From Silene latifolia (Eukaryota; Streptophyta; Magnoliopsida; Caryophyllales; Caryophyllaceae), in NCBI RefSeq assembly GCF_048544455.1, contig NC_133536.1, positions 198,465,325-198,529,324 of the forward strand: DNA of 64,000 nt, written 5' to 3'. The position numbers and the translations under genes are program-made. This document shows positions 30,184-63,899 of this stretch, piece by piece. The notes below the pieces were generated by a model. The model was not told where the DNA came from and did no database searches. It saw only the letters and a list, made by a program, of their open reading frames with translations. Each line of letters opens with the position of its first letter. Within the stretch, counting starts at the first letter, position 1.

Positions 30184-31362
30184 TTAAAGTTGGGGAATAA
30201 AGAAGGTTGGTGGGGAAAATGAGGAGCGCATATCATCACCTTCGTAAAATTGCAGGACGTCAGTCTTGATGTCATAGAAACCCGTATCATGTCCACCCTT
30301 CTCTCTTACCAACCTCCAATACACATAATCATCATCTGTGAAATAAATACAATTACGTTGCAAGCCTTCGGCATGTCCGGTAGCAACGCACATGGAAGAG
30401 TTACCGCCTACAACCAATGCCACTTCCCCCAAATCTTTAGTTATCTCCCAAATTTTGTCTTTAGGTTTAAGTTTGTACACCTCAAAACCAATTGTTCGAT
30501 AAACAATGTCGTGATCGAAATCAGTATTATCTGCATTCCCTACTCCATCCTTGTATCTTAACACCAGGAGGAGCTCATTACCTGATTGTGCCATGTATAT
30601 TTGATTTATACTTTTGTTCAACTTCACGAAAACTAAATTGACATGCAGCGAGTAATCTGCTGGTTTTATAAGCTGCAGAGCGTTGAATTCGTCGACATTC
30701 CAAGATACAATTGATCCATCTTCATATAGCGCAAATACTTTATCCTCTATCGCTACAAGATCAACCATCTTAACTTCAGATTTGACGAATATGGGTGTCC
30801 ACTGTTGATCGCCTTGTCTAGCAAAAGCTAGGCCCTGGTAATACTCGTAAACTACTAGAACAACAAACTCGTAATTATTATTTTGAGGAACTTTAAGCAC
30901 AATAAGCCTGTTTGCGAAACAACGCAAAAACCAACTCTCGTAACTTTCACCACTCGTAGGTGGTGTACCACAATCTAAGGGTTTTAAACAAGGGAAGTGA
31001 AATTGAGCCTTAGTGATTGGATTCAACAATATAACATCGTAGTTACGGTCAATCATTGCAATCCAACCGTATGGCGAACCCCAACACCTTGCTCCAAAAG
31101 TTTCCGGGAGATACAAGTTGTAACGCTTGTTATTAGAAAGATTAAATATCTTGCGAACACAATCGGGATTATCTTTAGTGTTTTCAGCAAGTAAAAGCCA
31201 TGGTACAACTGGTTTAGCCTTCCATTGATGCTTTACTGAAGACGAAGCACGATTCCACCAACGACATGCAACAGAAAACTTAATAAAATCTTCGAAAGTT
31301 TGTAACTTTAATGCAATGACGCCAACAACGTCAAGAGGCAACATAGACCAATCTGCAGCCAT
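30184..31362 (-). CDS. F-box/KIB (DUF295) protein, intact, block A copy
   Basis: A single exon of 392 codons. The F-box lies at about residues 3-45 (LPLDVVGVIALKLQTFEDFI, CRWWNRASS). The KIB propeller region follows with VVPWLLLAENTKDNPDC, FGARCWGSPYGWIAMI, ILLNPITKAQFHFPCLKPL, VLKVPQNNNYEFVVLV, GEVALVVGGNSSMC, NCIYFTDDDYVYW, GGHDTGFYD and SPPTFFIPQL. It differs from the copy at 58556 at about 13 residues, mostly clustered between residues 85 and 145. Its acidic segment is short (VGNADNTDFDHDIV). It is transcribed away from the broken gene at 32570. An SCF substrate-receptor role is inferred from the family. Confidence 0.92.
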   Translation of the reverse strand: MAADWSMLPLDVVGVIALKLQTFEDFIKFSVACRWWNRASSSVKHQWKAKPVVPWLLLAENTKDNPDCVRKIFNLSNNKRYNLYLPETFGARCWGSPYGWIAMIDRNYDVILLNPITKAQFHFPCLKPLDCGTPPTSGESYESWFLRCFANRLIVLKVPQNNNYEFVVLVVYEYYQGLAFARQGDQQWTPIFVKSEVKMVDLVAIEDKVFALYEDGSIVSWNVDEFNALQLIKPADYSLHVNLVFVKLNKSINQIYMAQSGNELLLVLRYKDGVGNADNTDFDHDIVYRTIGFEVYKLKPKDKIWEITKDLGEVALVVGGNSSMCVATGHAEGLQRNCIYFTDDDYVYWRLVREKGGHDTGFYDIKTDVLQFYEGDDMRSSFSPPTFFIPQL

Positions 31363-32569
31363 TTACTAGAACAAAAAATATTGAAATAAGTTAAACATGG
31401 AATTTTAAAAGGACAAATATGATCATATAAGGATCAAGATTCAAGATTATAACTTGAATAAGTAAATAAAAGAGAAAGGAGAGAAGATGAAGGAAGATCT
31501 AAGAACTAACCTTGGTTATATACGAGTATATTACCTAAAATTAAAAGGTGGCTTTAAGGAAAGGCTTTCCTTAGTACAACAACCACTTGAAAATATTACT
31601 TCAAATAATTAAAGGGTTTTTCTAACATGATAATAAGCCAAGTAAGGAAAGTTTGTTGAGAATATTTCATGACAAATTAGAGTTTAAACTCATATTTACC
31701 ATAATTAGTTATATAATGTTGAAAAACTTTCTTTACTTAGATTATTATCATGTGCCCTAAGGGCACATGTTAGAAAAACCCTCATAATTAAAATACATAA
31801 TTTTCTAAAAACAGACACGCTAAGGAAAATTTTAACTTAGGAAAGACGGTTTCTTACGATTTTATTGATATACCATTTATTTGTGCCCTCTATGTGTCTT
31901 TTATTATACTCCCTTTTGTTATCACAAATTCTCATTCCAGACGGTCCTCTACACATAAGAAGAAAAATGGCGGTTTAATTCGATGTTGTCTCATACAGTA
32001 CATCGTAAAATAAAGTTCAAGAACAATAGCAGCAACGCTTATGAGGCTGTGTCCTATCGATAAAGATTGAGGTCCCTATGTAATACTCATTGATTCGTAT
32101 ACTATTAAAATTACTCATATCAGGTGTCCAATCGGTTATCAATTCAGATATTATAATCGGATTTATTTCAAATGATCTCTACAAATAAGACTCCTTTTAG
32201 GTGAAAGTTAGTGATGTAAAATTGTTTTATAAACTTCTTACCTAAAACGGCATTCCATGAAAAAATTATATTACGAATTCCTAGATTAAGGAAAGTAAAT
32301 CTGACTTACACTTTCAAGTTTCACCTAAAAAAATTTGGACCACAATTAAATAGATCAAGGAAAGTAAGTTCGACTTACACCCCAACTCGATTTCTCAGAT
32401 TATTAGTACTGCTCTTTCTTCGACACCAAGGTTTACTATTTCTGATTAATTAATTATGTTGAGGAGTTGTGTTTGTTAAATTAGTTTCCCTTTCTTTATA
32501 TTTCTCTTCTGTTTATATTCTTTTTGTGATATTTGAATCTAATATTTGCATTAATATTTCTGCTATTAG
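31363..32569. promoter_or_regulatory. Head-to-head intergenic region of two KIB genes
   Basis: 1.2 kb between divergent start codons. The right part (about 32220-32400: taaacttcttacctaaaacg, gattaaggaaagtaaat, aatttggaccac) is shared with the upstream regions of the genes at 46745 and 62649, so this is a conserved subfamily promoter. A MITE sits at 31613-31782. Confidence 0.55.
31613..31782. mobile_element. 170-bp MITE with inverted repeats of about 40 bp
   Basis: Ends AGGGTTTTTCTAACATG and its exact complement at 31766-31782, with similarity continuing through ataataa and aaggaaagttt. The flanks aataattaa and cataattaa differ by one base in nine, fitting a MULE- or hAT-type target duplication. 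It contains the palindrome CATGTGCCCT-A-AGGGCACATG. Confidence 0.7.
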
Positions 32570-33513
32570 ATGGCCGCCATTTGGTCTACCTTACCTCTCG
32601 ATCTTCTTGGTGTCATTGCGTTAAAGTTGGAAACTTTGGATGATTTTATTAAGTTTTCTGTTGTATGTCGTCGGTGGAATCGTGCTTCATCCTCAATTAG
32701 GCACCAGTGGAGCGCTAAATCAGAAGTACCGTGGCTTTTACTTGCGGAAAACACTAGTGATAATCCCGATTGTGTTCGCAAGATTTATAATCTTAGTAAT
32801 AACAAGTGTTACAATTTCAACCTCCCTGAGACTTTTGGAGCAAGGTGTTGGGGTTCACCTTATGGCTGGGTTGCAATGATTGACCATAACTTCAATGTTC
32901 AATTGTTTAATTAACAGTTCACATTCTTGATGTTGTGGGAATGGAGGATAAAGTATTTGGTTTATATGAAGACGGTTCAATTGTATCTTGGGATGTCAAG
33001 GAATTCAACGCTCTTGAGCATATAAAACCAGCAAATTATTCACAGTGTGGCCATAAATTTTTCCTGAAGGTTAATGGATGGACTGCAATCCTAACATATT
33101 TGGTACAATCAGGTAGTGATCTTCTCGCGGTGTCAAGATTCAACAGACAAGTGTTAATTGATGATGATATTGTTTACAATGTTGATTATTTTTGGAGGAC
33201 AAATGATTTTAAGGTGTATAGATTTAAAACTGAAGACAAAAGTTGGGAGAAAATTGAAGATTTAGGGGAAGTGGCATTGGTAGTAGGTGGTAATTCTTCC
33301 ATGTGTGTTTCTGTAACACATACCAACGGGTTGCAACCTAATTGCATATATTTCACTGATGATTTAGATATGTGTTGGCTATCAGTAACAAAGCCAGGTG
33401 GACATTATACGGGTGTCTTTGACGTCAAGAGTCACGAAATACGGCAATTTTACGAAGGCGATGATATGCACTCATCATTTGCCCCACCGATCCTGTTTAT
33501 TCCCCAATTTTAA
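32570..33513 (+). pseudogene. KIB F-box pseudogene with internal deletion
   Basis: The N-terminal 114 codons are normal: F-box WSTLPLDLLGVIALKLETLD, then LPETFGARCWGSPYGWVAMI and NVQLFN. At 32912 the reading frame stops and the sequence jumps to DVVGMEDKVFGLYEDGSIVSW. The intact copies have roughly 110-120 codons between these points, so about 330-350 bp were lost, with a frame change. The C-terminal part (about 192 codons, ending SFAPPILFIPQF) is open. The promoter-like upstream region is shared with 46745 and 62649. There is no matching gene in block B. Confidence 0.88.
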
Positions 33514-33738
33514 ATTAAATTATTGGTAGTTCGAGACATGCTATAAAATTCTTTCCGCCGTAATATAAGTGACTAGGTGTTAAAGGTTACAAATATCAGT
33601 TCGTTGTTAAATAGTACTCCGTATACTCCGGGTTTTGCTCCCTCCCTTCTGTTTCTATTTTTGAAAAAAAAAACATCGATATATAATAAGAGCATGTTAT
33701 TAAAATTAGAATTCATGGGCTGACTTCAACACCTTTTA
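33514..33738. other. 3' flank shared with block B
   Basis: The stretch from caaatatcagttcgttgtta to gggctgacttcaacacct recurs at 60330-60498, just upstream of the gene at 60722, marking the paralogous junction between blocks. Confidence 0.65.
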
Positions 33739-33947
33739 GGGATATTTTACGGTGTGCCCTTGTGATTTTTGGTTTTCTACATTGTACCCCTCCTTTTTTT
33801 TATATTCTATGGTGTACCCCTAAACTCTATACATTAGTCTATTTCATGACCTTATTTGTTGTCTTTGCTAACTTAGTTTCTTAAATGACATATTAAATCG
33901 TCAATTTATCATTCCAATTACTCGGTAACCCACTCATTTACTTATTA

Positions 33948-34764
33948 GGGGGCGTTTGGTTGGGGGGAATAAGGAAAGGGAAAGAGAATAAAAATGGCTG
34001 ATTCCTTTTGTTGTTGTTTGTTTGACACAAAGAAAGGGTAACCCATACCCCCCCTTACCCCCAAAACCATTCTCATCCTTACCCCTCCCCCCCTTGGGTA
34101 AGCCCATAACCCCATAATCCCTTCTTCCTCCTATTCCCTATTTCCACCACTCCCACCAACACCCACCACACCCTCTCACACCGTCAACCACTGCCACCTA
34201 CACCCTACACCCACCACACCGACACAACCACCACCAGGGACGCCGACACAACCACCACCAACGACGCCGCCTGTCCACGCTACCTCATATCCTCAACCAC
34301 TAAACACCACACCAACAACTTCAGTAACTCTCCCACCCCACCAACCACCACCAACACCTTCCTCGGCCACACCACTGCAACCGCCCGACGCCGGCCACAC
34401 CAGATCTGGTGTTTTAAGGGGTGGGGGAGGGGTTTTCGAAGGGTTGTGGTGTATTTTTTAGAATGAATAAGGTGTTTAGGGTCGGGATTGTGGTGTTTGT
34501 TGAGGGCGTGAGGCGCGGTGATTAGGTTCGCCGTGGGGTACCGTGAGGAAGATCGTCGGCGCCGCTATTTGTGATGGTGTCGGTGTAGATAATGGTGGCA
34601 GGTGGTGGGTAATTGTGGTGGAGGTGGTGGATGTTGGCTTTTAATTCCCTTTTCCTCTAATTGTCAACCAAACACCCAAGTATAATATGGGTGATCCCAT
34701 TCATTTCCCTCTCATACCCTTTCTTGATTTCATTCTCTTACCCTTTCCCGTACCAAACGCCCCC
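33948..34764. mobile_element. PIF/Harbinger-like non-autonomous element, 817 bp
   Basis: Inverted ends GGGGGCGTTTGGT and ACCAAACGCCCCC lie directly inside TTA on both sides (33945-33947 and 34765-34767). The 3-bp TTA duplication is the PIF/Harbinger hallmark. The interior is CCA/CAC-rich low-complexity DNA without a transposase. Confidence 0.75.
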
Positions 34765-34801
34765 TTAGTTCGTCGAATTACTCATGATTAGCCCACGAAA
34801 T

Positions 34802-37559
34802 TGTAACACCCCGGTTTATAAAAGAAGTCCTCGTCAAGACATTCTCTAATAAAACGGACTGTTACCATCTCGGTTTCCCGAGGTAGTGAATAACAAATTA
34901 AACTCCAAGGCAATTATATAATATTTTAACTTAATTATTACAAACCTCTTTTCAACTCGATTACAAGAACTGACATAAATAAAAGTGAAAGTCTTCTAGA
35001 TGATGATCTAGTCACTAAGTCGTCTGATCCAATGTCTCACGCCCATCAAGCTCCCGTCCTATCTCTTAAACCTGTCAAGACTGCTCCCCATAAAACGGAT
35101 CATCACAGGTGTTCACGAATACACAGGGTCAACCACGAGGTTGAGTAGGGAAAACAAAATAAGTACAACAACAAAATACATAACTCCATTTCCAATTCGT
35201 CACATCCTCCACCTCTCCATATCACACTCCGAATAATCTCCACACCGTATCACATACCCCGAATAATCTCCACACCGTATCACATACCCCGAATAATCTC
35301 CACACCGTATCACATACCCCGAATAATCTCCACACCGTATCACATACCCCCCCGAATAATCTCCACACCGTATCACATACCCTGAATAATCTCCACACCG
35401 TATCACATACCCTGAATAATCTCCACACCGTATCACATACCCCCGAATAATCAATGATATCATACTCAATACGATCATCCTCCAACTCCAATGCATATGA
35501 ATGTTCAAAATAAATTGATGCAAAACAATATATATAAATCAATGAACTCGATGAATCGTAAAATCATGCCGATTACCGATGTTGTGATATCATACTCAAT
35601 ACGATCAAATCAATCAATCACCTTTCCGAATATAAATGATAACGTAAAGCAACAACCAGGAATCAAGTCAACACAATCCAACAATGACGATAATAGGACA
35701 AGTGTATTTCCCTACCTCAAGTGCCAAAAATCCAATTAAGCGATCCGAAAATAAAGTAATGAATTTGATTATCGATCCTTCACGAATCCGCCACCTAAAA
35801 CAATTATAATATTTATAATTACCAACTACTAAATATAGAGATCTCTCAATTAGGAGTCTTCCCGAAATACAATCCCGACACCAACTTATGCCCGGCTGAT
35901 AATTAAAATAACCCGATTAGCATTTGACTCAACTTCCCAAAATAGACAGTTATTAAAGTATAGTTTCTTAAAATGGAAACTTCCCGATATAGTAACTTTT
36001 CCATTAACCCGTCTTTAATTAATTACTTATTATTAATTATTATTTTATTTCCAATAACTCGGGACTAAGCCAAATGATAATTAGAGTATTAAACGAATTG
36101 TGTGATTTAATAAAAACCCAAATCAATCATTGAACAGCTCAACAATCCCGACTCAAAACCCATCTTTAATTAATTTAATATCTCGGGAATTAAATTAAAT
36201 AACCGATATGATAATTAAAAGATCAAACGGATTATTCGATTAAGAGAAACCCGAATTAATTATTAATAAAAGTAATCTAGTGACGACAATTAATTTGTTC
36301 ACTAATAATAATACTAACCCTTTATTTTATAAATAACAAACCCGACTTATGCACTAATATTAAAACGCTTACAAAATATCACAATGGTTATCGTCCCGAC
36401 TCAATTACGAACTTGAAGCCACGCTTTGTACCTCATTTCAACCCGACCCCGACTACCCTTACCCACGACCGGAAGTAGCCACCAGCAGTGGCCGCCGCCA
36501 CTGCCACCGTGGTCCCCCCAACTGCCTGGACCCCACTGGACCTCACCACCGTGGTCGACTCAGGCCGGCGAGTCTGACCACGGTCACCAACATCACCGGA
36601 CGCAGGTGACAACCCCACAAAACCCCTCTGTTTTTCCCTTTATCACCACCGCAACCAACCACTACCTCCTGCCAAACAACCACTATCCTATTCGCCGTCA
36701 TGCATCGTACCCAGGTGTCGTGGCGCCGCCGGTTCGACCTCCCCCGAGTCCACGGTGGCGCCACCCCAAACTCAACCAATCTAACTCGCCTGAAACTGCA
36801 TTTAAACCCGTATGCTACCCCCTCAATCGCTGCCTCCTTTCTCTACCACCACCATCACCTAAAACCACCTCAACAGCCACCACCCTAGTCGACCCTTACC
36901 ACCCTACCCCCTGACTTTGCTATCAACCACCAGTAACGCTTCCCTAAGCCACGAAATGACACCCAAAACTCGACATAATAAAGAAAACAGAGGAAAGAGT
37001 TGGCTCTTACCTTATCCTGCCGCCATAACAGCCACCAGGGCTGTCCACGGCCGACGACAACCGCCAATTGGCCTTCCTTGCTGCGCCGTCACAACCCCTG
37101 CTCTCTCTCTCTCTCTCTCTCTCGTTTGCGTGAGGGGTGTGTAATCATGGAAGAGAATAGGTAGAGTTGTCGGGCTTAATAAGGAAGAAGAGGAACCATG
37201 AAGTATGGTTTGTATGGGTGTTTGAAGTAGGCGTGGAGTATGGTGCGGGAATTGATGTGAACAAGGGAGTATGGGTAGTATAGGGTTCATAAAATAATCA
37301 AGCATGCCTTTTGTTTGTCTCATGGGCACGAAACACCACCCTAATACGGTTTCCCATAATTATTTTGGGTCCGATGTTTAATTATTTAGTTTACCTTTCG
37401 AATCCTTATAAACCCGTCTTAATTAACTTAGCTCGATAACTTAACATAATTCTCGACTAACAATTAACCCGACATAACTAGTAATATAAATGTATAATAA
37501 TTAATATAAAATAATATCCGTTTAATTAATTTTATTATATAAAAATACGGGGTATTACA
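34802..37559 (-). repeat. LARD LTR, left (3' in element sense)
   Basis: Same length as its partner, with few differences. It contains a 30-bp minisatellite, a proline-rich-looking GC segment near 36430-36900 and a CT microsatellite near 37101. Confidence 0.92.
35228..35453. repeat. 30-bp minisatellite in the left LTR
   Basis: About seven units of a 30-bp sequence beginning gaataatctccacaccgtat. Unit joints vary (ctccgaa, ccccgaa, ccctgaa and a longer one). Confidence 0.9.
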
Positions 37560-38779
37560 GTCTTCCCCCCTTAAAATGAACTTCGTCCCGAAGTTCGCTC
37601 CCATACTCAAACCTCAAAATGGTATTGTATATCGTACTTACAAACGTCACGCATTTCTAACACGGTTAACTCACACTTTTGACACATCAATTAAACATAA
37701 CAAAAACGAAATGTTACATTCTGCCCTCCTAAAAATAAACTTCGTCCCGAAGTTTTAGCTCTTCTTTACTTAACCCAATTAACTACGACTAATAACTACC
37801 GGCGAACACAACTGTATAACAATTAAATCCTCATCTGAGAACACCATCATCTTTTCATCTCAATTCCGATCTCAAACTCGACATAAACTCATTAACCATG
37901 GTCGCACTGGACCGCAAACATATCTCCCGTAATCATCACTCGGCTCATAGGCCACTCATAACTCATTACCAGCAGTTTAATCAAACTCTCCTTTTACACA
38001 TCAATTAACTAACAGAAGTAGTAACAAAACATATAGAACTCATTTGCATACGTACCCTACAACTAAACGTCAACTTGGTCAACTATAACCTACAAACAAG
38101 TGCAAATTAAGCATCAAGATTTTACAATCCTCCCCAACTAGAAACATGGTTACGTCCTCGTAACCTTCATTATTATAACAACGGTCTCAAACTACTGCTA
38201 ACAACTTAAAAAGAATAAAAGGTTCTCAACTCACGTTCCAGATAACTGGTTCTTACCAAAGACAATCGATATACAACTCTTTCAAGGATGCTACCGTTAC
38301 CAGTAAAAAAAAAATCATTAGTAATTATTCACCTCACCAATCATTGTAATTTCATACCTTAGAATATAGGGGATCAATCACCATAAGGAAAGAATTAGGG
38401 TCAACACTTTGGTAAATCGATCTTATTAAAATTTATAACCTAATAGGTCCAATCCAACTTTCCTTTACACAATTGTACAAATTCAGGTCAAGACACAGAA
38501 TCACCGATAACAAATGAAGACAACCAGTTTCGCAGTACTTATCGTCCCAGAAATATTTTCAATTCTTATAACAAAGGGTTTAGGAATTATTCACAAATGA
38601 CGAATGCGCCTTGATTGACAAATTCTACAAACATATTGGTCGAGTCAAACAAGCGGGTAAACCTCGTTATTGGGAAGTTAACATACAAGACTATCATGCA
38701 TAAAATTTCGTTATTGGTATTAAATATGTTTAACTGCACTCAACACCATGACATACAAGGTTAATGTATTTAACGACAC

Positions 38780-38821
<42 letters not shown>

Positions 38822-39906
38822 ATTATTCGTTACCTGTCATGCTAATATCAACTTACCATGTTAACACGTAACTCATTTAAATCACCAAATCACATTTCCC
38901 GTTTCGACATTCGTAACCAACCACAACCCACCAATTCGCTATGTGAACGAACAACATGACTAACTTGACTCACCACTTGTGACTCCGTTCTAATTTCATT
39001 ACTCCAGACTTAGCAACTATCATGAAACCATTCAACCAGACACTAGCTGGAAATCTCCTACCGAATTTATACTCACACGACAAAATTTAGCTTCATTTTC
39101 AAACTTTTACTTTCATACTGGACGGTGATTAAATTTTCTTAACATAATCTTATAACAGGGCCGTCATAGAATCCATTTACAGCTTACTACAAACTCAAAA
39201 TCAGATAGACTTAATTCAATTCCTTTAAACAAAACAAGCTGAGGTGTGGACTCATATATTAGAATCTTACAGATTCAGCTTATTCATTTCAGTCCTATCT
39301 TTACTAATGAACGTCTATTACCTCAATCATCAGGATTTTAGTTGCACTTCTTTACTCAGTTATATTCACGACTCAATTAAACTTAACTATAACAACTATC
39401 ATTTAAACCAGCGCATATCATATGAATCATTAAAGGGTTATCCCATTATAATATTGCCAACATAGTTATCATGAACAATCTTTATTAAAATATAATTGCT
39501 AGTGACGACTCGAGAATATAGATATTTCAAATGTCGTATTATATCAAACAATTTCCTTTATATCATGCTCCTACAATTGCAAGGATCCCTTTAGTATTTT
39601 ATGACGGTATAATGATGAACATATCCATTAAGAATTAACAACACTGCTTATTATCATGTTATAGGTTTTAGGTTCAATTGAAATATTTGAATGCAATGAA
39701 GGTAATAAGTATAACTTTAGGCACACAACTCACATGAAAGTCTTGAAAACTCAGATGACACCCTACATGGGTGGACATTTAAACACGATCATTACCACCA
39801 TCCATGTGTAAACTTTTAAACAAAATTATTGTAAATATTCATGCGAGTATATTAGAGAAAAATTAAATTAACTTTTAACGCCATCCACTATGCTCTGATA
39901 CCACTT

Positions 39907-42664
39907 TGTAACACCCCGGTTTATAAAAGAAGTCCTCGTCAAGACATTCTCTAATAAAACGGACTGTTACCATCTCGGTTTCCCGAGGTAGTGAATAACA
40001 AATTAAACTCCAAGGCAATTATATAATATTTTAACTTAATTATTACAAACCTCTTTTCAACTCGATTACAAGAACTGACATAAATAAAAGTGAAAGTCTT
40101 CTAGATGATGATCTAGTCACTAAGTCGTCTGATCCAATGTCTCACGCCCATCAAGCTCCCGTCCTATCTCTTAAACCTGTCAAGACTGCTCCCCATAAAA
40201 CGGATCATCACAGGTGTTCACGAATACACAGGGTCAACCACGAGGTTGAGTAGGGAAAACAAAATAAGTACAACAACAAAATACATAACTCCATTTCCAA
40301 TTCGTCACATCCTCCACCTCTCCATATCACAGACCCTGAATAATCTCCACACCGTATCACATACCCTGAATAATCTCCACACCGTATCACATACCCTGAA
40401 TAATCTCCACACCGTATCACATACCCTGAATAATCTCCACACCGTATCACATACCCTGAATAATCTCCACACCGTATCACATACCCTGAATAATCTCCAC
40501 ACCGTATCACATACCCTGAATAATCTCCACACCGTATCACATACCCTGAATAATCAATGATATCATACTCAATACGATCATCCTCCAACTCCAATGCATA
40601 TGAATGTTCAAAATAAATTGATGCAAAACAATATATATAAATCAATGAACTGATGAATCGTAAAATCATGCCAGTTACCCGATGTTGTGATACCATACTC
40701 AATACGATCAAATCAGTCAATCACCTTTCCGAATATAAATGATAACGTAAAGCAACAACCAGGAATCAAGTCAACACAATCCAACAATGACGATAATAGG
40801 ACAAGTGTATTTCCCTACCTCAAGTGCCAGCAAATCCAATTAAGCAGTCCAGAAATAAAGTAATGAATTTGATTATCGATCCTTCACGAATCCGCCACCT
40901 AAAACAATTATAATATTTATAATTACCAACTACTAAATATAGAGATCTCTCAATTAGGAGTCTTCCCGAAATACAATCCCGACACCAACTTATGCCCGGC
41001 TGATAATTAAAATAACCCGATTAGCATTTGACTCAACTTCCCAAAATAGACAGTTATTAAAGTATAGTTTCTTAAAATGGAAACTTCCCGATATAGTAAC
41101 TTTTCCATTAACCCGTCTTTAATTAATTACTTATTATTAATTATTATTTTATTTCCAATAACTCGGGACTAAGCCAAATGATAATTAGAGTATTAAACGA
41201 ATTGTGTGATTTAATAAAAACCCAAATCAATCATTGAACAGCTCAACAATCCCGACTCAAAACCCATCTTTAATTAATTTAATATCTCGGGAATTAAATT
41301 AAATAACCGATATGATAATTAAAAGATCAAACGGATTATTCGATTAAGAGAAACCCGAATTAATTATTAATAAAAGTAATCTAGTGACGACAATTAATTT
41401 GTTCACTAATAATAATACTAACCCTTTATTTTATAAATAACAAACCCGACTTATGCACTAATATTAAAACGCTTACAAAATATCACAATGGTTATCGTCC
41501 CGACTCAATTACGAACTTGAAGCCACGCTTTGTACCTCATTTCAACCCGACCCCGACTACCCTTACCCACGACCGGAAGTAGCCACCAGCAGTGGCCGCC
41601 GCCACTGCCACCGTGGTCCCCCCAACTGCCTGGACCCCACTGGACCTCACCACCGTGGTCGACTCAGGCCGGCGAGTCTGACCACGGTCACCAACATCAC
41701 CGGACGCAGGTGACAACCCCACAAAACCCCTCTGTTTTTCCCTTTATCACCACCGCAACCAACCACTACCTCCTGCCAAACAACCACTATCCTATTCGCC
41801 GTCATGCATCGTACCCCGTGTCGTGGCGCCGCCGGTTCGACCTCCCCCGAGTCCACGGTGGCGCCACCCCAAACTCAACCAATCTAACTCGCTTTGAAAC
41901 GCATTTAAACCCGTATGCTACCCCTCAATCGCCGCCTCCTTTCTCTACCACCACCATCACCTAAAACCACCTCAACAATGACCACCACCCTAGTCGACCC
42001 TTACCACCCTACCCCCTGACTTTGCTATCAACCACCAGTAACGCTTCCCTAAGCCACGAAATGACACCCAAAACTCGACATAATAAAGAAAACAGAGGAA
42101 AGAGTTGGCTCTTACCTTATCCTGCCGCCATAACACCACCGGGGCTGTCCACGGCCGACGACAACCGCCAATTGGCCTTCCTTGTCGCTGCGCCACAACC
42201 CCCCGCTCTCTCTCTCTCTCTCTCTCTCGTTTGCGTGAGGGGTGTGTAATCATGGAAGAGAATAGGTAGAGTTGTCGGGCTTAATAAGGAAGAAGAGGAA
42301 CCATGAAGTATGGTTTGTATGGGTGTTTGAAGTAGGCGTGGAGTATGGTGCGGGAATTGATGTGAACAAGGGAGTATGGGTAGTATAGGGTTCATAAAAT
42401 AATCAAGCATGCCTTTTGTTTGTCTCATGGGCACGAAACACCACCCTAATACGGTTTCCCATAATTATTTTGGGTCCGATGTTTAATTATTTAGTTTACC
42501 TTTCGAATCCTTATAAACCCGTCTTAATTAACTTAGCTCGATAACTTAACATAATTCTCGACTAACAATTAACCCGACATAACTAGTAATATAAATGTAT
42601 AATAATTAATATAAAATAATATCCGTTTAATTAATTTTATTATATAAAAATACGGGGTATTACA
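39907..42664 (-). repeat. LARD LTR, right (5' in element sense)
   Basis: Partner of 34802-37559, adjacent to the primer site. Confidence 0.92.
40334..40555. repeat. 30-bp minisatellite in the right LTR
   Basis: About seven to eight units with period exactly 30, homogeneous with the ccctgaa joint, unlike the mixed array in the left LTR. Confidence 0.9.
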
Positions 42665-45396: not shown

Positions 45397-45485
45397 GTTA
45401 GTCTTGTAAAATACATGTATTCTACAAACTTGTTACGTAAGACCGCCTTAAAAAAAATGTATAAATAATAAATTCAGCGCCAATA

Positions 45486-52591: not shown

Positions 52592-55500
52592 TAGTAGTGA
52601 AATGGGTATGGTAAATTACAAAGTTAGTATCGTAAAATGGTAATTTTAGGATACGACACAATCAATGTTGAAAATCTCATAAATCAAGTATGGGAGAATG
52701 CACAATCAATTTGGAAAACTATCCCATGACTAAATTGGGAATTACCATTTGCTTCTTTTGAAGCACTAACTCCAACAATCCCCTACATGATTCAAAAGAA
52801 GTGAACAAGAATAGCTGATATAAGGCAACGGAACGTAAGTCTTAAGATGACAATGTTCCTGAGGAATTGAATTGTCACCCAGTGCATACAATTACCTGCT
52901 ACAGCCGTATTGAGTTGCTCTCGGCATTGGACTCTCCACGGTGGTTTGTAACGGATAACTGCGCACAAACCTGCATTCGAATCTGTGTTCGTCCTCGCGA
53001 AATGTCATATAAGGTGCCCCTCACATGCCTGGGATCTCGTGAACGCTCTAGAGGTCCTAAAGCCTAAGAACCTCATAGGGGGTAGGGCATTTCCCCCACA
53101 TTCACATAAGTAACTCCATCAGGTTTGACTGTCACAAACCATCCTTAAACAAGGACTATGGACTTATTAAGAGCTTAACTCAACCTTCCTCACATGACAG
53201 AAAATAGCTCAATATATAGAAAAAATACTACATCACTTTTATTAAAATAGGAATGGTAGTAGTATTACAACATGAGATCCTCGTGACTTCGTTTGACCCA
53301 TTGAACTTGGTAAACCCAAGTGGGGGAGCCCCGTCACGATTCACTCCCAATAGGCTTTAAACCCATTCCTTGTGGTGCCACCAACACCAACTTCTACCAT
53401 GGCCATTGGTAGGAGGATCTCAATATCCTCTTTACAATTTACGTACGTACTATCATGATATCACATTGTGTAAGGGATCTCACTGCCCACTTACAATTCA
53501 CAACCTTTGTGAACCCATTATCCGATCAGATTATCCATCACTCTTGATAATCTGCCAAAAAACCTAATGCTTCAGATTATGATGCATGACAATTAATGGA
53601 GTCAAAATATTCCCACAAAGGAATACAACCAGCACTTAGCCATTCAGCTTTTTATCCTGCAAATTTCTCACAATATATTCATACTCCATTACATATTCAA
53701 CAATGTAGTTGTGCATCTATAACTTGCATGATATAACATTATGAAAGACACCGTTTGTCAAATAAATATCATAATTATTCGACGTTCAATGAAAATGTAA
53801 ACTCATTCCCAAAGATACAATTGTTTTCATGGATTGGCTTACAAAAAACCATGGTGTCCATCTACTTATAACAACGATATAAGTTATATCATATCTCTCA
53901 CAACGCATACAAACATCATATATATGAATGTAACAACCTTTCCACCAATTTCATCTTGTCATGTATAAACTCAAGAATACATCTTAAATAACTCATATAT
54001 TAGTGATCCAATTATCACAAATAATATCCGTTAAAGAAACATCGCCAAAATCAAAACCAAATAAATATAGATTATGCGTCTTTTACCCTTTCTTGTTTTA
54101 ATATAAGCACTTAAACCAAATAAAACGTAATTAGTCCAACACATGTATTATGGAACAACCATACATAAATCCTTATTCGGAGAAATAAGTTTATACAATC
54201 TCAATGTCAGAGTATTCACATCTATCTACCAATCCCATGTAATTGTCATTATAACCACTTCCAACACTGAAACCCAATATTTTACGACAAAAATAAAGGA
54301 AGTCTTACCTTTGCTAGACACCCCCACAAGCCTTGACTTATCTCAAAGTCTTAGCTAGGCAAACATCCTCTAATCGGACCAATCACTCTCATAAGAATTG
54401 ACAAAGTAATCTTACATAAAGTTTATAAAATGTCCGACTCAATTCAACAACAAAACTTCAAAGCAGTGGAAATGGTCAATATTTTATAGCTCAAGGCTAA
54501 CATTCAAGATGACATAAGATGATGATAGAAAAATACGCTCCATATATTTCCATATATATCACATAAGGAATACGTTTTTTCACAACTTAGAGAGGAAACA
54601 CAACTTTTCAAAGTTTACTCAAATAATAGGTATAGAACACTTACCTACTTCCCCCACATGTTGTCATACTATACATAAGTGACAACACAACAATAAAAAA
54701 GTCATGAATATATTGATCTGATCAATCATATAAACACATTAAACAACATCTTTATATAATTGGTATGATGCATAAATGTCCATTAACAAAAATTCTCACC
54801 CATGTACAGCTTACAGAGTTACAGTAGCACATACTGACATACATTACACTACACCGTCAAATTTCATCTATCCATCAATTCTATCTGATTGACATAAACA
54901 AATCTAAACATGTTACCAACCGCCAAATTAAATCACTGACCCAAAACCTCAAAGACAGTATCAAAGTTTGCAAATGTCTACTAGTCTTACTGGGTGCATA
55001 TACTGATAGAAGCCGTCTATTTTCTGTCTAAACAATGCACGTTGATGCTTACATTTAACACACATGTAGCACGTTAATAATGTTTAGATATCTAGCTATG
55101 AATGGCACTTCCTTTTATCATAGATTGCATATGAAGTAAATCAATTCTCCGCTAATTCATGTGCATTGCTAACAAATTCTATCAAACTCCGTATATCTTA
55201 ACCGAAAAGTTTAAATTAATAATAACAAAACTTTGGTAACATGCAAACCTCAAAATCACAAATAACTTAGAGAAATCACACGTACTCTGTAACAAACATG
55301 ACGGTTTTAATTTAACTATCAAAAATCACGTTAACTTTTAGCAACCCAAAACAAAATGCACTTCACACAACCTACATCACCCAACACTTACACAGATTAC
55401 AAATTACGATATGCTTGGGTTGAAAAAATAGGTTTTGAGCATGTGTGAAAAAAACAAATGTGAGTTTCAAAATAATAGTACTTATCTATGAACATTAAAT

Positions 55501-58220
55501 TTTGTTATTTCCCACTTCAGCTATGGGAGATGAGTTAAGCATTACGCTGTATCGTCTGCATCTATCACTTTGGTACAAACATCGCCGCCAATTAGGCAAG
55601 AACAAGAATATCGTAATCGCGCAAGCAAGCATAACAGAGAAGCAAGCCAAAAGTCGAAACATAGTGTTAGAACACATTTGGTTGATGATGTCAAGTTTCA
55701 TTTGTTATTTAATTGTTTGCTTCTTAGTTAAATTGTTTAGCAAAATTGAAGCTATTGATGATCAATCAAAGAGTCCACAAGTTAATCAAAGTAACAAGAT
55801 GATCAAGATGAAGGCAAGACAAGAAAGCCCATTGCCTAGAATGAATGTTGTAAACGAGGTAGTTAAACATATCCTCTTTATGCATAAGTGATTGCAAAAC
55901 CATGCAACAGTTCCTGTGACTGTTGCACCATGGTTTCTGGTACTAACGTATGGAGAATTTTCGGGAAAATTCACAAGTGCTTGAAATTCTTTAAAAAGTT
56001 TTTTTATGTTCAAGTGGAACATTATTTCAAAACTGAAGAACAAAAAAAAAAGAACAAAAAGAATATGCTTGCACAATAATTTAAAGATGCCAATCCCATT
56101 TGTGCAAGTTGTTTTTCATGCTAAAAATAGGACTTATGCTTTTTCCATTTGTGGCAAAATTGTGAGTTCCCATAAATTTTATGGAAAACACTCCTTTGCT
56201 TCTGAAAATTACAGCCACGTTGAGCCTCACAAATCTGATTGTTCTTTTATAATTTTAAATGAAAATGCATACTAAAAACCTATGGACATTAGATTAAAGT
56301 AGTGTTAAGATCCTTCTCTTACACACTACCTTTCTCTATAAATAGCCACTTCATTTATCATTTATTGGAAGACTTTTCAGAACACTCATTGTAAAACATT
56401 TGCAAAATCATTTCAGCATTTTAAGCTTTGTTCTTCAAATATTTGCAAAACCGTTTTCTGTTTTCAAAAGTCTTCACTTGTTTTTCAAAGTCAGAAAATC
56501 TCCAAGTATCGCGTTAAACTTAAGCTGTTGCATACGAATATGTTCAATGATTCTCGTGTTTAGGTCTTAATTGTAATCTCCATGTTCTTAAGTGAAACAC
56601 TGAGATTTTGACTCTGTAAACCGTTGAGATAGAACTTTAAGTCTTGAAGCGGAGTAGCTTTGAGCAAGGGAAAGTCTTGAAGCGGAGTAGCTTCAAGCAA
56701 TTGCAACCGGAGTAGGTTGGCGAGTTATTTTCATTGTAAGGGGTTTAGTTAAGTTTGAGTAAATTTCTAAACAAGCAATAAAATAACGGTTGGACGTAGG
56801 CTCCGGAGTAGGAGCTGAACCAATTTTTAAAACATCGTCTTGTTTGTTTACTTACTTTTACATTCGTTTATCCTTTGCATTTTTATCTACCTATCTCGTT
56901 GCAGTCTTTGTGCAACGATTCATCATCTTGTTGCATAGACTGCTTTGTCTGTTTGTGAACTTACAATCCATTAAATTTCTCAAACTCGTACCTAATAGAT
57001 CTTACTTGTGTTAGTCATTAACCAAGTAAACGAGAAAATTTTTAAAAGGTACACCTAATTCACCCCCTCCCCCTCTTAGGTGTTTATCGTTCTTAACTCT
57101 TCACATAGCCAAATGTCATTAGAAATCTCAACCCCCTTTTCACCGCCAACAAAAACCGATGGGGAAATATAATGGCTGGATTAAAATAAATGACGATGAA
57201 AGAAAGGAAACGCAAAATTACTCCATAAACCTCATTAATGGTAAGAGCAACTGACCCTAGGAGGAAAGAGGATAAGATTAATAACTAATACAACACTAGT
57301 TGACAAAGGTTCAAAATGAAATTTATATTCCGTCTCATAACGTTTGACTATTTTACTTCTTACTCGATACATTTAACACAGAATTCATACGTTTAAAAGA
57401 TCTTTGCAAGCAAAATCACAAATACAAATATGGCTAATTATTTATAATCAAAAAGTTTATCTTATTTTATAGTCTTACTGTCAAACTTGTGCATGAATTG
57501 TATGTCTGCATACACGTACTTCATGACAAATCAAAAGGTTAATGAGAAGGACAGTTCATTCCTACTGGACAAACCAATCCTTGGTATATATTATTGCTCA
57601 TCGCAACAAAATTTATAAAGGATACAAGAAAATTCGACTTTTGGTGATGAATAAGTAGAAATAGACATCGCCATATCGCCTTAGATAAAAATTTAAAGAG
57701 CAAAATTTTTCAAATTTTAACTTTAGATTATAGGCGGTATGACTGTTAGACGAACAAAGAAAAAATAGACTTACAGAACTTGAAAGGAAAGATGTCGTGG
57801 CGTGATAGAATCACTGCCCTAAAGTTGAATTTGCCCCGCTCGATACACACGGCCTCTTGGCAACCAACCCCCAGGGTTACACGACGTCCGAGTCTAAGGT
57901 GTACGACAAAGACTCAGAATGAGGACTACTTGCAGAACGTTGCCAAATATCAGCTTTATACAAGAGAAATATTTTAGAGAGGAATAAACGAAAGAATGAT
58001 TGTTTCTTTTTTGTGTGGTAGGGATGGGTTTATATAGTAGTGAAATGGGTATGGTAAATTACAAAGTTAGTATCGTAAAATGGTAATTTTAGGATACGAC
58101 ACAATCAATGTTGAAAATCTCATAAATCAAGTATGGGAGAATGCACAATCAATTTGGAAAACTATCCCATGACTAAATTGGGAATTACCATTTGCTTCTT
58201 TTGAAGCACTAACTCCAACA
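52592..58220 (-). mobile_element. Non-coding LTR-type element bounded by identical 186-bp repeats (probably broken)
   Basis: The 186 bp at 52592-52777 recur, apparently identically, at 58035-58220, in direct orientation. Read on the minus strand they begin TGTTGGAGTTAGTGC. A purine tract (gtaggggat, minus strand) adjoins the 52777 border, and a TATATAAACCC promoter-like motif follows the right copy on the minus strand. This suggests the U3 parts of two LTRs. No gag or pol domain was seen in between and no standard primer site was found, so it is a non-autonomous or decayed element. A solo LTR is nested at 55665-57103. The repeats are incomplete as LTRs. Confidence 0.55.
55665..57103 (+). mobile_element. 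Solo LTR, SIRE/Maximus-like copia, 1439 bp
   Basis: Starts TGTTAGAACACATTTGG and ends AACTCTTCA, with target duplication CATAG (55660-55664 and 57104-57108). It has the SIRE-like opening TTGATGATGTCAAGT, a TATA box (CTCTATAAATAGCC near 56331), paired motifs ccggagtagg and gcggagtagctt, and the CCTAATTCACCCCCTCCCCC stretch near its right end typical of this lineage. No internal region remains, so it is a fossil. Confidence 0.85.
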
Positions 58221-58555
58221 CAACTAAGTTTTTTTAACAAAGGAAAAATTCTCAAATGGATGGTCATCTTTAACCTTACTATTTTTAGCAGTATTTAGTT
58301 GATTTTTGTGATATAGTAGTAAATTTTGTTTTTTTTTTTTTTTTTTTTTTTGAAAATGTAAGATTCCATTATAATCATCAAATCAACCCATATATTCTAA
58401 GGTTCAGTATCACCTTAGTTACTCTACATAAAACTACCCAAATATTATTGTTCAGCCAATTGCTTACACGTCAAATTTTTGACTAAAAACTATTACATCG
58501 AATAAATTTTAAAAAGTAGCTACAATTAATGGTATGCAATCGAACTACGATAATT
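58221..58555. other. Block B left flank, empty Helitron site
   Basis: Matches 23295-23395 joined to 24394-24480, and further right 29490-29530 and 30100-30183, i.e. the left side of block A without its Helitron, copia and F-box-fragment insertions. A T-run lies at about 58329-58351. Confidence 0.85.
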
Positions 58556-59734
58556 TTAAAGTTGGGGAATAAAGAAGGTGGGTGGGGAAAATGAGGAGCG
58601 CATATCATCACCTTCGTAAAATTGCAGGACGTCAGTCTTGATGTCATAGAAACCCGTATCATGTCCACCCTTCTCTCTTACCAACCTCCAATACACATAA
58701 TCATCATCTGTGAAATAAATACAATTACGTTGCAAGCCTTCGGCATGTCCGGTAGCAACGCACATGGAAGAGTTACCGCCTACAACCAATGCCACTTCCC
58801 CCAAATCTTTAGTTACCTCCCAAATTTTGTCTTTAGGTTTAAGTTTGTACACCTCAAATCCAATTGTTCGATAAACAATGTCGTGATCGAAATCAGTATT
58901 ATCTGCATTCCCTACTCCATCCTTGTATCTTAACACCAGGAGGAGCTCATTACCTGATTGTGCCATGTATATTTGATTTATACTTTTGTTCAACTTCACG
59001 AAAACTAAATTGACATGCAGTGAGTAATCTGCTGGTTTTATAAGCTGCAGAGCGTTGAATTCGTCGACATTCCAAGATACAATTGATCCATCTTCATATA
59101 GCGCAAATACTTTATCCTCTATCGCTACAAGATCAACCATCTTAACTTCAGATTTGACGAATATGGGTGTCCACTGCTGATCGCCTTGTCTAGCAAAAGC
59201 TAGGCTCTGGTACCACTCGTAAACTACCAGAACAACAAACTCGTAATTATTATTTTGAGGTACTTTAAGCACAATAAGCCTGTTTGCGAAACAACGCAAA
59301 AACCAACTCTCGTATCTTTCACCACTCGTAGGTGGTGTACCACAATGTAAGGGTTTTAAACAAGGGAAGTGAATTTGAGCCTTAGTGATTGGATTAAACA
59401 ATTGAACATCAAAGTTAAGGTCAATCATTGCAATCCAACCGTTAGGCGAACCCCAACACCTTGCTCCAAAAGTTTGCGGGAGATACAAGTTGTAACGCTT
59501 GTTATTAGAAAGATTAAATATCTTGCGAACACAATCGGGATTATCTTTAGTGTTTTCAGCAAGTAAAAGCCATGGTACAACTGGTTTAGCCTTCCATTGA
59601 TGCTTTACTGAAGACGAAGCACGATTCCACCAACGACATGCAACAGAAAACTTAATAAAATCTTCGAAAGTTTGTAACTTTAATGCAATGACGCCAACAA
59701 CGTCAAGAGGCAACGTAGACCAATCTGCAGCCAT
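58556..59734 (-). CDS. F-box/KIB (DUF295) protein, intact, block B copy
   Basis: A single exon of 392 codons, sister of 30184-31362, with about 13 residue differences. The F-box is WSTLPLDVVGVIALKLQTFE with CRWWNRASS. The KIB region has LPQTFGARCWGSPNGWIAMI, VQLFNPITKAQIHFPCLKPL, VLKVPQNNNYEFVVLVVYEW, EVYKLKPKDKIWEVTKDLGE, NCIYFTDDDYVYW and SPPTFFIPQL. Where the two differ, this copy more often keeps the residue shared by the other genes (FDVQLFN rather than YDVILLN), so the 30184 copy has drifted or been converted more in that region. It is head-to-head with 60722. Confidence 0.92.
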   Translation of the reverse strand: MAADWSTLPLDVVGVIALKLQTFEDFIKFSVACRWWNRASSSVKHQWKAKPVVPWLLLAENTKDNPDCVRKIFNLSNNKRYNLYLPQTFGARCWGSPNGWIAMIDLNFDVQLFNPITKAQIHFPCLKPLHCGTPPTSGERYESWFLRCFANRLIVLKVPQNNNYEFVVLVVYEWYQSLAFARQGDQQWTPIFVKSEVKMVDLVAIEDKVFALYEDGSIVSWNVDEFNALQLIKPADYSLHVNLVFVKLNKSINQIYMAQSGNELLLVLRYKDGVGNADNTDFDHDIVYRTIGFEVYKLKPKDKIWEVTKDLGEVALVVGGNSSMCVATGHAEGLQRNCIYFTDDDYVYWRLVREKGGHDTGFYDIKTDVLQFYEGDDMRSSFSPPTFFIPQL

Positions 59735-60721
59735 TTACTAGAGGAAACAATATTGAAGTAAGTTGAACATGGAAGCCCGGAACAAACCTAAGCTTCCTCT
59801 TATAAGATTGCGCTCACAAATACTATCTCCCTCTCCTTAATTAACCTAGACTAATATTAGGACCTTTATATAGATTTATTCCACCCTAAATAAGAGATCT
59901 AGACTAATTAGGAAACAAAGAATATTAGGAAATTAAACAATTAATTTCCAAAATCTGTATTAGGAAACAAGCTCAAAGACTAAACAAACTAGGAAAGTGC
60001 ATGGGACCCACTCACTTTCCACAAACTCGCGTATAGCAAAGTGAGCCATACTACATACTCAATCACGAAAGTCGGTCATGGCCTCATGGCATCATATAGC
60101 CATGCGACTCGCGAGACTTACGGGTCATTGCTTCGTCTTTTCATCCTTAGCTTATCTCCGGCTTCTTGCCTTTACTTAATTCGTATTCGACACAAATTCA
60201 AGGCACAAGATTGCCATTGTAGCCATTGTAGGTGGTCCAATAGATGAAACTATGACAATCAATGTTGGAATTAGATTCAGTACAATGCCGGAATAATGTG
60301 CGGCTTGTCTGGGTGTTTGATTTTGTACAAATATCAGTTCGTTGTTTACATAGTACTCCGTATACTCCGGGTTTTGCTCCCTCCTATTCTTTATGTCATG
60401 GATTATTACTCCCTTCTATTTCTATTTTTGAAAAAAAAACATCGATATAAGTGATGATATTATTAAAATTAGAATTCATGGGCTGACTTCAACACCTTAA
60501 GTAGCTGGCTTGAACAAAAAAAAAAAAAAAGAAATAGTCCGTATTAGGTAATGATATCCCAACTCTAGTCGATCAAGGAAAACAAAAACCTTAAAACGCA
60601 CAACTTCTATATAAGTTGTTAATTTAGTCTTTTACATGTACTTCGATCCCTTTTAATTATCGTCTTTAAATTTCATACAAAATACGTACTTGAATTTCTA
60701 TTGTTTTGTTTCTAGTACAAT
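59735..60721. promoter_or_regulatory. Head-to-head intergenic region, block B
   Basis: 987 bp between divergent ATGs. From about 59775 to 60330 the sequence has no match in block A, where the broken gene at 32570 would be expected; its origin is unknown, though ctttatatagat on the left and its composition hint at an LTR-like insert. From 60330 it matches the 3' flank of 32570 and then the upstream region of 43694. Confidence 0.5.
60608..60615 (+). promoter_or_regulatory. TATA box of the KIB gene at 60722
   Basis: TATATAAG 114 bp before the ATG. The copy at 43694 has the weaker TATTTAAG at the matching place, so the two promoters may differ in strength. Confidence 0.5.
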
Positions 60722-61897
60722 ATGGCTTCCGATTTCTCGATGTTGCCTCTTGATCTTCTTGGTGTCATTGCATTAAAGATTGAAAACTTCGAAGATTATA
60801 TTAAGTTTTCTGTTGTATGTCGTTCCTGGAATAGTGCTTCGTCTTCAGTAAAGCACCAATGGACAGCTAAACCAATTGTACCATGGCTATTACTTGCTGA
60901 AAACAATCAGGATAATCCCGATTGTGTTCGCAAGATATATAATCTTAGTAATAACAAGTGTTACAATTTGAACCTTCCGGAGACTTTTGGAGCAAGGTGT
61001 TGGGGTTCGTCATATGGCTGGGTTGCAATGATTGACCGTAACTTGGATGTTAAATTGTTTAATCCAATTACTAAGGCACAAATTCCGTTGCCTTCTCTAA
61101 AGCCCCCACGTACATATTTTAATCCTCGAAGTGGTGAAAGTTACCAGAATTGGTTTTTGGATAGTTCTGCAGACAAGGTGATTGTGCTTAAAGTACCTCA
61201 AAATGATCATTACGAGTTTGTTGTTATGTTAGTTCGTCAGCATTGCCATAGTGTAGCCATCGCTAGGCATGGCGACCAATTGTGGACACCTGTCTCCGTC
61301 AAATCAAAAGGTCGGATGCTTGATGTTGTTGAAATTGATGATAATATATTAGCTTTATACAACGACGGATCAATTGTATGTTTGAATGTCAAGGAATTCA
61401 ACGCTCTTGAGCCTCTAAAACCAGTAGATTATTCACCGTGTGGCCATGAATTATTCGTCAAGTTCAACCGTGGGCATGTGTACCATACATATTTGGTCCG
61501 ATCAGGTAGTGATCTCCTCGCAGTGTTAAGATACAGGGAACAAGTGGGTAATGAGAAAGACGATGATGATATTTTTTGTCAGACAATTGATTTTGAGGTG
61601 TATAGATTTAGAACAGTAGACAAAAGTTGGGAGGAAATTGATGATTTGGGGGAAGTGGCATTGGTCGTAGGTCGTAATTCTTCCATGTGTTTTTCTGTAG
61701 GACATACCAATGGATTGCAACGTAATTGCATATATTTCACTGATGATTATCATTTGTTTTGGGGATCAGTAAGAGAGCCTGGTGGACATGATACAGGTGT
61801 CTTTGACTTCGAGAGTGGCGACATATGGCCATTCTACGAAGGTGATGATATCCATTCAATATTTTCTCCACCTACCCTGTTTATTCCCCAATTTTAA
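60722..61897 (+). CDS. F-box/KIB (DUF295) protein, intact, block B copy
   Basis: A single exon of 391 codons, sister of 43694-44869. The F-box is FSMLPLDLLGVIALKIENFE with CRSWNSASS. The KIB region has CYNLNLPETFGARCWGSSYG, KLFNPITKAQIPLPSLKPP, VLKVPQNDHYEFVVMLV, FEVYRFRTVDKSW, NCIYFTDDYHLFW and FDFESGDIWPFYEGDD. About 17 of the differences from 43694 fall in the first 130 residues and only about eight in the other 260. The NLNLPETFGARCWGSSYGWV stretch is instead that of 46745/62649, down to a long shared DNA run. Gene conversion from that subfamily is the likely cause. The short acidic stretch is EKDDDD. Confidence 0.92.
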   Translation: MASDFSMLPLDLLGVIALKIENFEDYIKFSVVCRSWNSASSSVKHQWTAKPIVPWLLLAENNQDNPDCVRKIYNLSNNKCYNLNLPETFGARCWGSSYGWVAMIDRNLDVKLFNPITKAQIPLPSLKPPRTYFNPRSGESYQNWFLDSSADKVIVLKVPQNDHYEFVVMLVRQHCHSVAIARHGDQLWTPVSVKSKGRMLDVVEIDDNILALYNDGSIVCLNVKEFNALEPLKPVDYSPCGHELFVKFNRGHVYHTYLVRSGSDLLAVLRYREQVGNEKDDDDIFCQTIDFEVYRFRTVDKSWEEIDDLGEVALVVGRNSSMCFSVGHTNGLQRNCIYFTDDYHLFWGSVREPGGHDTGVFDFESGDIWPFYEGDDIHSIFSPPTLFIPQF

Positions 61898-62280
61898 AAT
61901 GTTTTATCATACGAAGTACAATTTTTTTTTTAGTTACATGAAATGGAGTAGTCGTTTGAGGGTTAGCGATGGCTTCTGGTCTATTTTGTTTGTTAGGAGA
62001 CTCCTTTTCGTCTATCATTCGATTATATTGAATTCGCTTTGATTTTGGTTCCATTCAGATTGAATTGAGCTCCAAGTACTATTTAAGCTACTCATATCAT
62101 CAAGTGTTCGATTGATTTATCAATTCAGATATTTTCGTATGATTTTTCAAGTTCAGAAGAGGTCTAAAAATAAGTCATTTATAAACAAAAGTTTAGTCTT
62201 GTAAAATACACGTATTTTACAAACTTGTTACCTAAGACAGCCTTAAAAAAATTGTATAAATAATAAATTCACCGCCAATA

Positions 62281-62350
62281 ACTTCCGATTTCTCGAAGTT
62301 GCTTCTTGATCCATCTTCTTACTTAGTATCATTGAACTAAAGATTGAATT
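62281..62350 (+). pseudogene. N-terminal relic of a KIB F-box gene (block B)
   Basis: acttccgatttctcgaagtt and the following text match the relic at 45486; it is a trace of a gene lost before the block duplication. Confidence 0.6.
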
Positions 62351-62504
62351 AGGTTTCGGGTACACAATTCAGATTGAGTGTTCCTTTAGTTATAAACTTC
62401 TTACATAAAACCGCTTTCCATAAAAAAATTATTTAAGTTGAATATCTAGATTAAGGAAATTAAATTTGACTAATTACACTATAACCTAAAAAAATTTGGA
62501 CCAC

Positions 62505-62512
62505 TATATAAA
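62505..62512 (+). promoter_or_regulatory. TATA box of the KIB copy at 62649
   Basis: TATATAAA 144 bp before the ATG, same spacing and context as at 46601. Confidence 0.55.
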
Positions 62513-62648
62513 AATTGATAAATCCCACAAGACTCCAACTCGAATTCGTCAGGCTCACGGTTACTATAAATTGTTTAATTAGTTGTGTTTGTTAAATTAA
62601 TTTCACTTTCTTTATTTTACTTTTCAGTTTATATTCTTTCTTTTTTAG

Positions 62649-63899
62649 ATGGCCGTCGATTGGTTTACGTTGCCTCTCGATCTTCTTAGTTTCATTGTAT
62701 TAAAGTTAGAAACTTTTGAAGATTTTATTAATTTTTCTGCTGTATGTCGTTGCTGGAATCATGCTTCTTCGTCAGTCAAGCAGCAGTGGAGCGCTAAACC
62801 AAACGTACCATGGCTATTACTTGCTGAAAACAATAAAGATAATCCCAATTGTGTTCGCAAGATTTTTAATCTTAGTAATAACAAGTGTTACAATTTGAAC
62901 CTTTCGGAGACTTTTGGAGCAAGGTGTTGGGGTTCGTCTTATGGCTGGGTTGCTATGATTATTGACCGTAATTTCGATGTTCAATTGTTTAATCCAATTA
63001 CTAAGGCACAAATTCCATTCCCTTCTCTAAGACCCTTATATGATGGTGATGAGAGTGACGAGGATGATGAAAGTTATCGGCATTGGTTTTTGAGCAGTTT
63101 TGCGGACAGGCTCATTGTGCTTAAAGTACCTCAAAATAATAATTACGAGTTTGTTGTTCTGGTAATTCATGAGTATTACCAAAGCCTTGCTTTCGCTAGG
63201 CAAGGTGATCAATCGTGGACTCCAATATTCGTCAAATCAAGAGTTACGATGCTTGATATTGTGGGTATGGAGGATAAAGTATTTGGTTTGTATGAGAATG
63301 GATCAATTGTGTCTTGGAATGTCGAGGAATTCAACGCTCTTGAGCTTATTAAACCAGCAGACTATTCACCATCTGGCCACGAATTTCTCGTGGACTTTAA
63401 CACAAGGGGTGTAAACCACACATATTTTGTACGATCAGGTAGCGATCTCCTTGCGGTGCTAAGATATAGGAAAGAAGTCCGTGATGAGGATGATACTGAT
63501 TACGATGATGAGGATGATGATGATGCTGAACACGATGATGAGGATGATGCTGAACACAATGATAAGGATGATGCTGATCATGATAATGATGTAGTCCGTG
63601 ATGAGGATGATACTGATTACGATGATGAGGATGGCGATGATGCTGAACACAATGATGAGGATGATGCTGATCACGATAATGATGATGATGATAGTGATTA
63701 TGATGATGAGGATGATTCTGATTACGATGATAAGGATGATTCTGGTTATTTTTCCAGGACAAATTATTTCGAGGTGTATAGATTTAAATCTGAAGACGAA
63801 AGTTGGGAGCAAATTGAAGATTTAGGGGAAGTGGCATTGGTAGTAGGTGGTAATTCTTCCATGTGTGTTTCTGTAACACATACCAACGGGTTGCAATAA
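62649..63899 (+). pseudogene. KIB F-box gene with the longest acidic tract, 3' end cut off
   Basis: Open for 416 codons from MAVDWFTLPLDLLSFIVLKLE through the whole propeller region to CVSVTHTNGLQ. Paralogues continue RNCIYFTDD and another 55-60 residues to FIPQF. Here the match ends at about 63896 and a TAA follows at once, so the conserved C-terminus is lost to an insertion or rearrangement whose other side lies beyond the window. The Asp/Glu tract is about 90 residues (63483-63745) and contains an internal duplication: VRDEDDTDYDDED starts both halves (63477 and 63594). It does not share the 7-bp insertion of its block A partner. A shortened protein could still be made, so calling it a pseudogene is a judgement. 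Confidence 0.8.

Follow-up and report, generated by a model that had tools for sequence, protein, structure and literature searches.

A KIB F-box gene cluster of Silene latifolia, probably enlarged by joint duplication of one block and reshaped by transposons, gene conversion and gene death

The window, that is, the whole 64-kb stretch of Silene latifolia DNA analyzed here, contains a cluster of intronless KIB-type F-box genes, with pseudogenes and relics, interspersed with transposable elements. All sequence comparisons of the cluster copies were made within it. The features are as follows.

12349-13533, plus strand: K1, intact KIB-type F-box gene of 394 amino acids, not part of the duplicated block (PF03478, E = 1.2e-45)
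23295-23395, plus: left part of block A, 97% identical to 58222-58323
23396-24393, minus: Helitron-like element in block A, 998 bp, with a CTAG end and a CCGTGCA..TGCACGG hairpin, inserted between A and T
24566-29333, plus: Copia retrotransposon, long terminal repeats (LTRs) 96.3% identical, with copia-type gag, gag-pre-integrase and SH3-like domains
29531-30098, plus: R1, 3′ end of a K3/K7-type gene with 3′ flank, in block A only, 95-96% identical to the K3/K7 coding end
30184-48059: block A as delimited in a preliminary description, K2(-) K3(+) K4(+)
30184-31362, minus: K2, intact KIB gene, block A position 1 (PF03478, 1.4e-44), 97.6% identical to K6
32570-33514, plus: P1, KIB pseudogene in block A lacking codons ~115-197 (about 80 codons deleted), found by tblastn
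33734-43002: stretch with 93-bp inverted repeats at its ends (33734-33826 versus 43002-42909, 77.7%), containing the next element and absent from block B
34802-42664, minus: LTR retrotransposon, 7.9 kb, with 2.76-kb LTRs and target duplication GAAAT
43694-44869, plus: K3, intact KIB gene, block A position 2 (PF03478, 6.8e-46; F-box, 2.8e-4)
45178-45396: solo LTR in block A, target duplication GTTAG, empty site in block B
45487-45556, plus: N-terminal KIB relic of block A, of which 29 bp (45487-45515) are 96.6% identical to the start of K5
45636-46489: solo LTR in block A, target duplication TAAAC, empty site in block B
46745-48059, plus: K4, KIB pseudogene, block A position 3, with a 7-bp insertion, a frameshift and an acidic repeat insert
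50838-52196, plus: K5, chimeric KIB pseudogene between the blocks, stop codon near 51494
52589-58220: 5.6-kb element covering the junction of the K5 flank with block B; its direct terminal repeats, 189 bp each, are 99.5% identical
58222-58452, plus: left end of block B, matching 23295-23395, 24394-24468 and 29483-29534
58556-63896: block B, K6(-) K7(+) K8(+), pairing one to one with block A
58556-59734, minus: K6, intact KIB gene, block B position 1 (PF03478, 3.7e-44)
60722-61897, plus: K7, intact KIB gene, block B position 2 (PF03478, 7.1e-47; F-box, 2.1e-4)
62282-62348, plus: N-terminal KIB relic of block B, recognized by homology and translation
62649-63896, plus: K8, broken KIB gene, block B position 3, whose homology ends at 63896, followed by a stop, with a large acidic repeat

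Outside the cluster proper, exons at 5258-9018 resemble a TPX2/WAVE-DAMPENED2-like protein, a possible single-copy synteny anchor. On the minus strand at 9329-10462 lie remains, split by frame breaks, that resemble an F-box-associated-domain protein of another class; a Pfam search with the piece at 9911-10369 gave no match. A U6 spliceosomal RNA match at 11158-11259 scores just over the gathering threshold. At 43165-43400 there is a retroposed U3 snoRNA. It matches the plant-specific Rfam model at full length, has an A tail and a target duplication of 17 bp (AAATTACCTTTGTAGTA), and lacks the promoter element normally found upstream. The related DNA preceding K5 (about 49040-49130) has no U3 copy.

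KIB proteins combine an F-box with a PF03478 β-propeller (formerly DUF295) and act as SCF substrate adaptors. PF03478 was matched at E values of 1e-34 to 7e-47 in K1, K2, K3, K6, K7 and K8, and partially in both open reading frames (ORFs) into which K4 is broken and in K5, there in the 5′ ORF. The F-box (PF00646) scored above the Pfam cut-off in K3, K4, K5, K7 and K8, and K1 gave an F-box-like match below threshold. No F-box match was obtained for K2 and K6, though their N termini align closely. Ka/Ks between subtypes is 0.3 to 0.5, indicating purifying selection, and Ks between K1 and the cluster genes is ~0.47 to 0.53. An AlphaFold2 model built with six sequences only had a pLDDT of 34, too low to use, and a sequence search found no solved structure among relatives. 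By analogy with the family, the five intact proteins are probably substrate adaptors of SCF E3 ligases, with the F-box end on SKP1 and the propeller holding the target. Arabidopsis KIB1 ubiquitinates BIN2 (PMC12111011). The cluster proteins resemble the KIB1-4/DUF295 family (Arabidopsis KIB1, AT4G12810; PMC12111011) at the family level, in the PF03478 β-propeller domain and, for K3, K4, K5, K7 and K8, in the F-box. Unlike KIB1-4, some cluster copies have a long insert of acidic Asp/Glu repeats, reaching ~90 residues. This coding minisatellite lies in the propeller region (K4, 47585-47731; K5, 51677-51851; K8, 63482-63744), differs in length among the three and is nearly absent from K3 and K7.

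K1, K2, K3, K6 and K7 are intact, while K4, K5, P1 and K8 are broken, each by a different lesion; in K5 the stop codon sits at the matching place of the gene. Since K8 does not have the K4 insertion, the two position-3 copies died independently. The relics translate as 'SDFSTLPLDTSS' in block A (from 45470, plus strand) and 'SDFSKLLLDPSS' in block B (from 62265, plus strand). The start of R1 (29531) and the end of K8 (63896) fall within ~33 bp of the same gene position, possibly a recurrent breakpoint or else chance. Viral and prokaryote collections contained no loci related to the cluster.

The order and orientation of K2(-), K3(+) and K4(+) are repeated in K6(-), K7(+) and K8(+), as the preliminary description had it, and its claim that intergenic DNA, promoters and an N-terminal relic are common to both blocks also held. 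In self-comparison of the window, collinearity of the two blocks extends from 23295/58222 to 47879/63896; spacers, promoters and gene relic are homologous and in the same order, so that homology crosses the gene borders. Five collinear matches lie far above chance (E from 0 to 1e-36): 30126-31402 with 58497-59774 (K2/K6, 97.6% identity), 33588-33735 with 60326-60498, 43479-45182 with 60515-62201 (K3/K7, 94.2%), 45398-45608 with 62193-62400 (relic, 92.4%) and 46489-47879 with 62392-63896 (K4/K8). Homology around K2/K6 ends ~40 bp upstream and ~58 bp downstream of the ORF and gives way to rearranged DNA, a point against copying as one block; 551 bp at 59775-60325 are block B's own sequence. Two simplifications in the preliminary description need correction: the left limit of the block is not 30184 but further out, where 23295 corresponds to 58222, and a plain two-block picture leaves out K5 between the blocks as well as P1 and R1 within block A.

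Divergence of the shared noncoding DNA is uniform. Gap-free mismatches between the blocks number 7/225 in the left pieces, 7/98 in the K2 flanks, 8/142 in the spacer piece X, 12/187 upstream and 17/298 downstream of K3, 13/204 in the middle piece and 6/255 upstream of K4. These seven pieces, drawn from both ends and the middle of the blocks, are homogeneous (pooled 70/1409 = 5.0%; chi-square p = 0.205), although the piece upstream of K4 (2.4%), set against the K3 noncoding pieces (6%), is the lower (p = 0.019). An older intergenic split, considered from the raw 78% identity of the 33588-33735 match, was rejected, as its gap-free count of 8/142 is in line with the rest. Ks is 0.033 (0.012-0.058) for K2/K6, 0.082 (0.050-0.117) for K3/K7 and ~0.04 for K4/K8. 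The three synonymous counts are borderline for a single age (p = 0.05), and the synonymous divergence of no pair differs from the noncoding rate (p = 0.09 to 0.62); the spread in Ks thus gives no clear argument against a common origin. Trees of three gene partitions likewise pair K2/K6, K3/K7 and K4/K8, with the K3/K5/K7 node open at the 5′ end. We therefore accept a joint duplication, on homogeneous noncoding pieces, borderline synonymous counts and the agreement of every pair with the noncoding rate. At rates in common use for plants, 7e-9 to 1.3e-8 per site per year, 5% divergence would correspond to ~2 to 4 million years, a figure that is only indicative.

Several elements can be placed in time against the duplication. 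The element at 23396-24393 has the CTRR end, nearby hairpin and A/T insertion without duplication of a Helitron, is non-autonomous judging by its 998 bp, and is absent from block B, which reads straight through the site. Block B has clean empty sites for this Helitron and for both solo LTRs, which were therefore inserted after the duplication. The 34802-42664 element, within a 9.7-kb stretch missing from block B, has paired TG..CA LTRs, a 5-bp target duplication and a primer-site motif (TGGTATCAGAGC) adjoining its LTR on the minus strand; no gag-pol was seen in it. Its LTRs differ at 31/2750 sites (1.1%) compared to 70/1409 (5.0%) between the blocks (p = 3e-13), so it is younger than the blocks. 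The LTR divergence of the Copia element (3.7%) does not separate it in age from the blocks (p = 0.59). Later insertion into block A, as the preliminary description proposed, thus stands for the three empty-site elements and the nested LTR element, but the amount of ~17 kb does not: the surplus of block A is ~12.4 kb for 30184-48059 and 18.9 kb counted from 23295, and 17 kb is about the total span of 30184-48059. Not all of this surplus is proven insertion, as block B seems to have lost pieces. It is missing ~30 bp next to the second solo-LTR site, as well as the stretch that carries the Copia element, and short microhomology at the joints makes these look like deletions. A match of 48458-48924 to 23385-23858 (73%), taken as a spacer shared after K4 or a third repeat unit, was rejected; both begin with the same Helitron end and are dispersed element copies. 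At 52589-58220, two marks of an LTR retrotransposon, an exact 5-bp target duplication at the repeat ends and a primer site, were looked for and not found, and no long ORF was recognized.

An alternative hypothesis is that the blocks are two alleles of one locus that the assembly placed one after the other, the plant being highly heterozygous. An allelic repeat would show identical geometry, transposon presence or absence together with ~5% noncoding divergence is also typical of divergent plant haplotypes, and the joint lies under an element without a target duplication. Even so, ~5% is high for alleles, and K5, P1, R1 and K1 are other, older copies in the cluster, from which it follows that real local duplication certainly occurs at this locus. 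We consider such an artifact unlikely, though it is the chief risk to the reading given here.

The pairs themselves are blurred by gene conversion, the likely source of the scatter in Ks. In K7, nucleotides 219-289 agree with K4 at 20 polymorphic sites in a row (permutation p = 0.0005 over 28 tested pairs). At most sites of this tract where they differ, K3 agrees with K5; nucleotides 219-301 of K7 were probably converted from a K4/K8 type. Much of the high Ks in the 5′ part of K3/K7 (0.124), considered as a counterargument to joint duplication, is this tract. Mismatches between K3 and K7 fall to 2/426 in the 3′ part compared to 43/750 in the 5′ part (p = 6.5e-7). K5 has a K3-type promoter and 5′ part and a K4-type 3′ part and 3′ flank (mosaicism, p = 0.0002): it groups with K3/K7 over nucleotides 1-300 (support 96/97) and with K4/K8 over nucleotides 621-1176 (98/97). 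Nucleotides 447-716 of K1 resemble the K4/K8 type (p about 0.005). The K5 chimera, the K7 mosaic, a divergence ranging from 0.5% (3′ part of K3/K7) to 6% (K3 flanks), and K4/K5 3′ flanks about as diverged as the blocks (5.7%) fit a stepwise origin, in which several smaller unequal exchanges and conversions in a pre-existing array could have produced the same pattern, but noncoding divergence is homogeneous across the blocks, at either end and in the middle, and the relic and spacers keep the same order, which makes this improbable.

Joint duplication of one block, followed by transposon insertion, conversion and gene death in a KIB birth-and-death cluster, is therefore the probable history. 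Collinearity establishes two copies of the block; we infer the exact crossover, and likewise, from the window alone, the ancestral state of the locus. A single tandem or near-tandem duplication would have copied KIB(-), KIB(+), the gene relic and KIB(+), giving blocks A and B. The Helitron, the solo LTRs and the nested long-LTR element then filled block A, and block B may have lost pieces, as the microhomology joints suggest. Exchange among paralogues made the mosaic genes, as the statistics show, and the differing lesions of K4 and K8 show independent breakage at position 3. The mechanism, described earlier as visible, is so only in part, with the duplication joint hidden under the later 5.6-kb element and conversion explaining much of the difference from pair to pair. 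We speculate, with little confidence, that recombination between copies of this element helped to make or reshape the duplication and that the cluster keeps swapping KIB-subtype segments into new substrate-binding mosaics.

Tandem duplication is the main source of young plant F-box copies, many of which turn into pseudogenes (Hua et al. 2011, PMC3030570). As in the birth-and-death evolution and genomic drift of that account, four of the nine substantial copies here are broken, and relics occur beside them. In contrast to that picture, what was copied here comprises several genes, and tracts of conversion and insertions that can be dated are read directly from the sequence of one genomic window. 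The cluster is ordinary F-box birth-and-death evolution, unusually legible. While it changes no general view, it provides a worked example of F-box expansion, in which 40 kb display the copying of a block, insertions that are dated, tracts of conversion and genes that died independently, and with it conversion in a plant F-box cluster could be calibrated against the age of a duplication.
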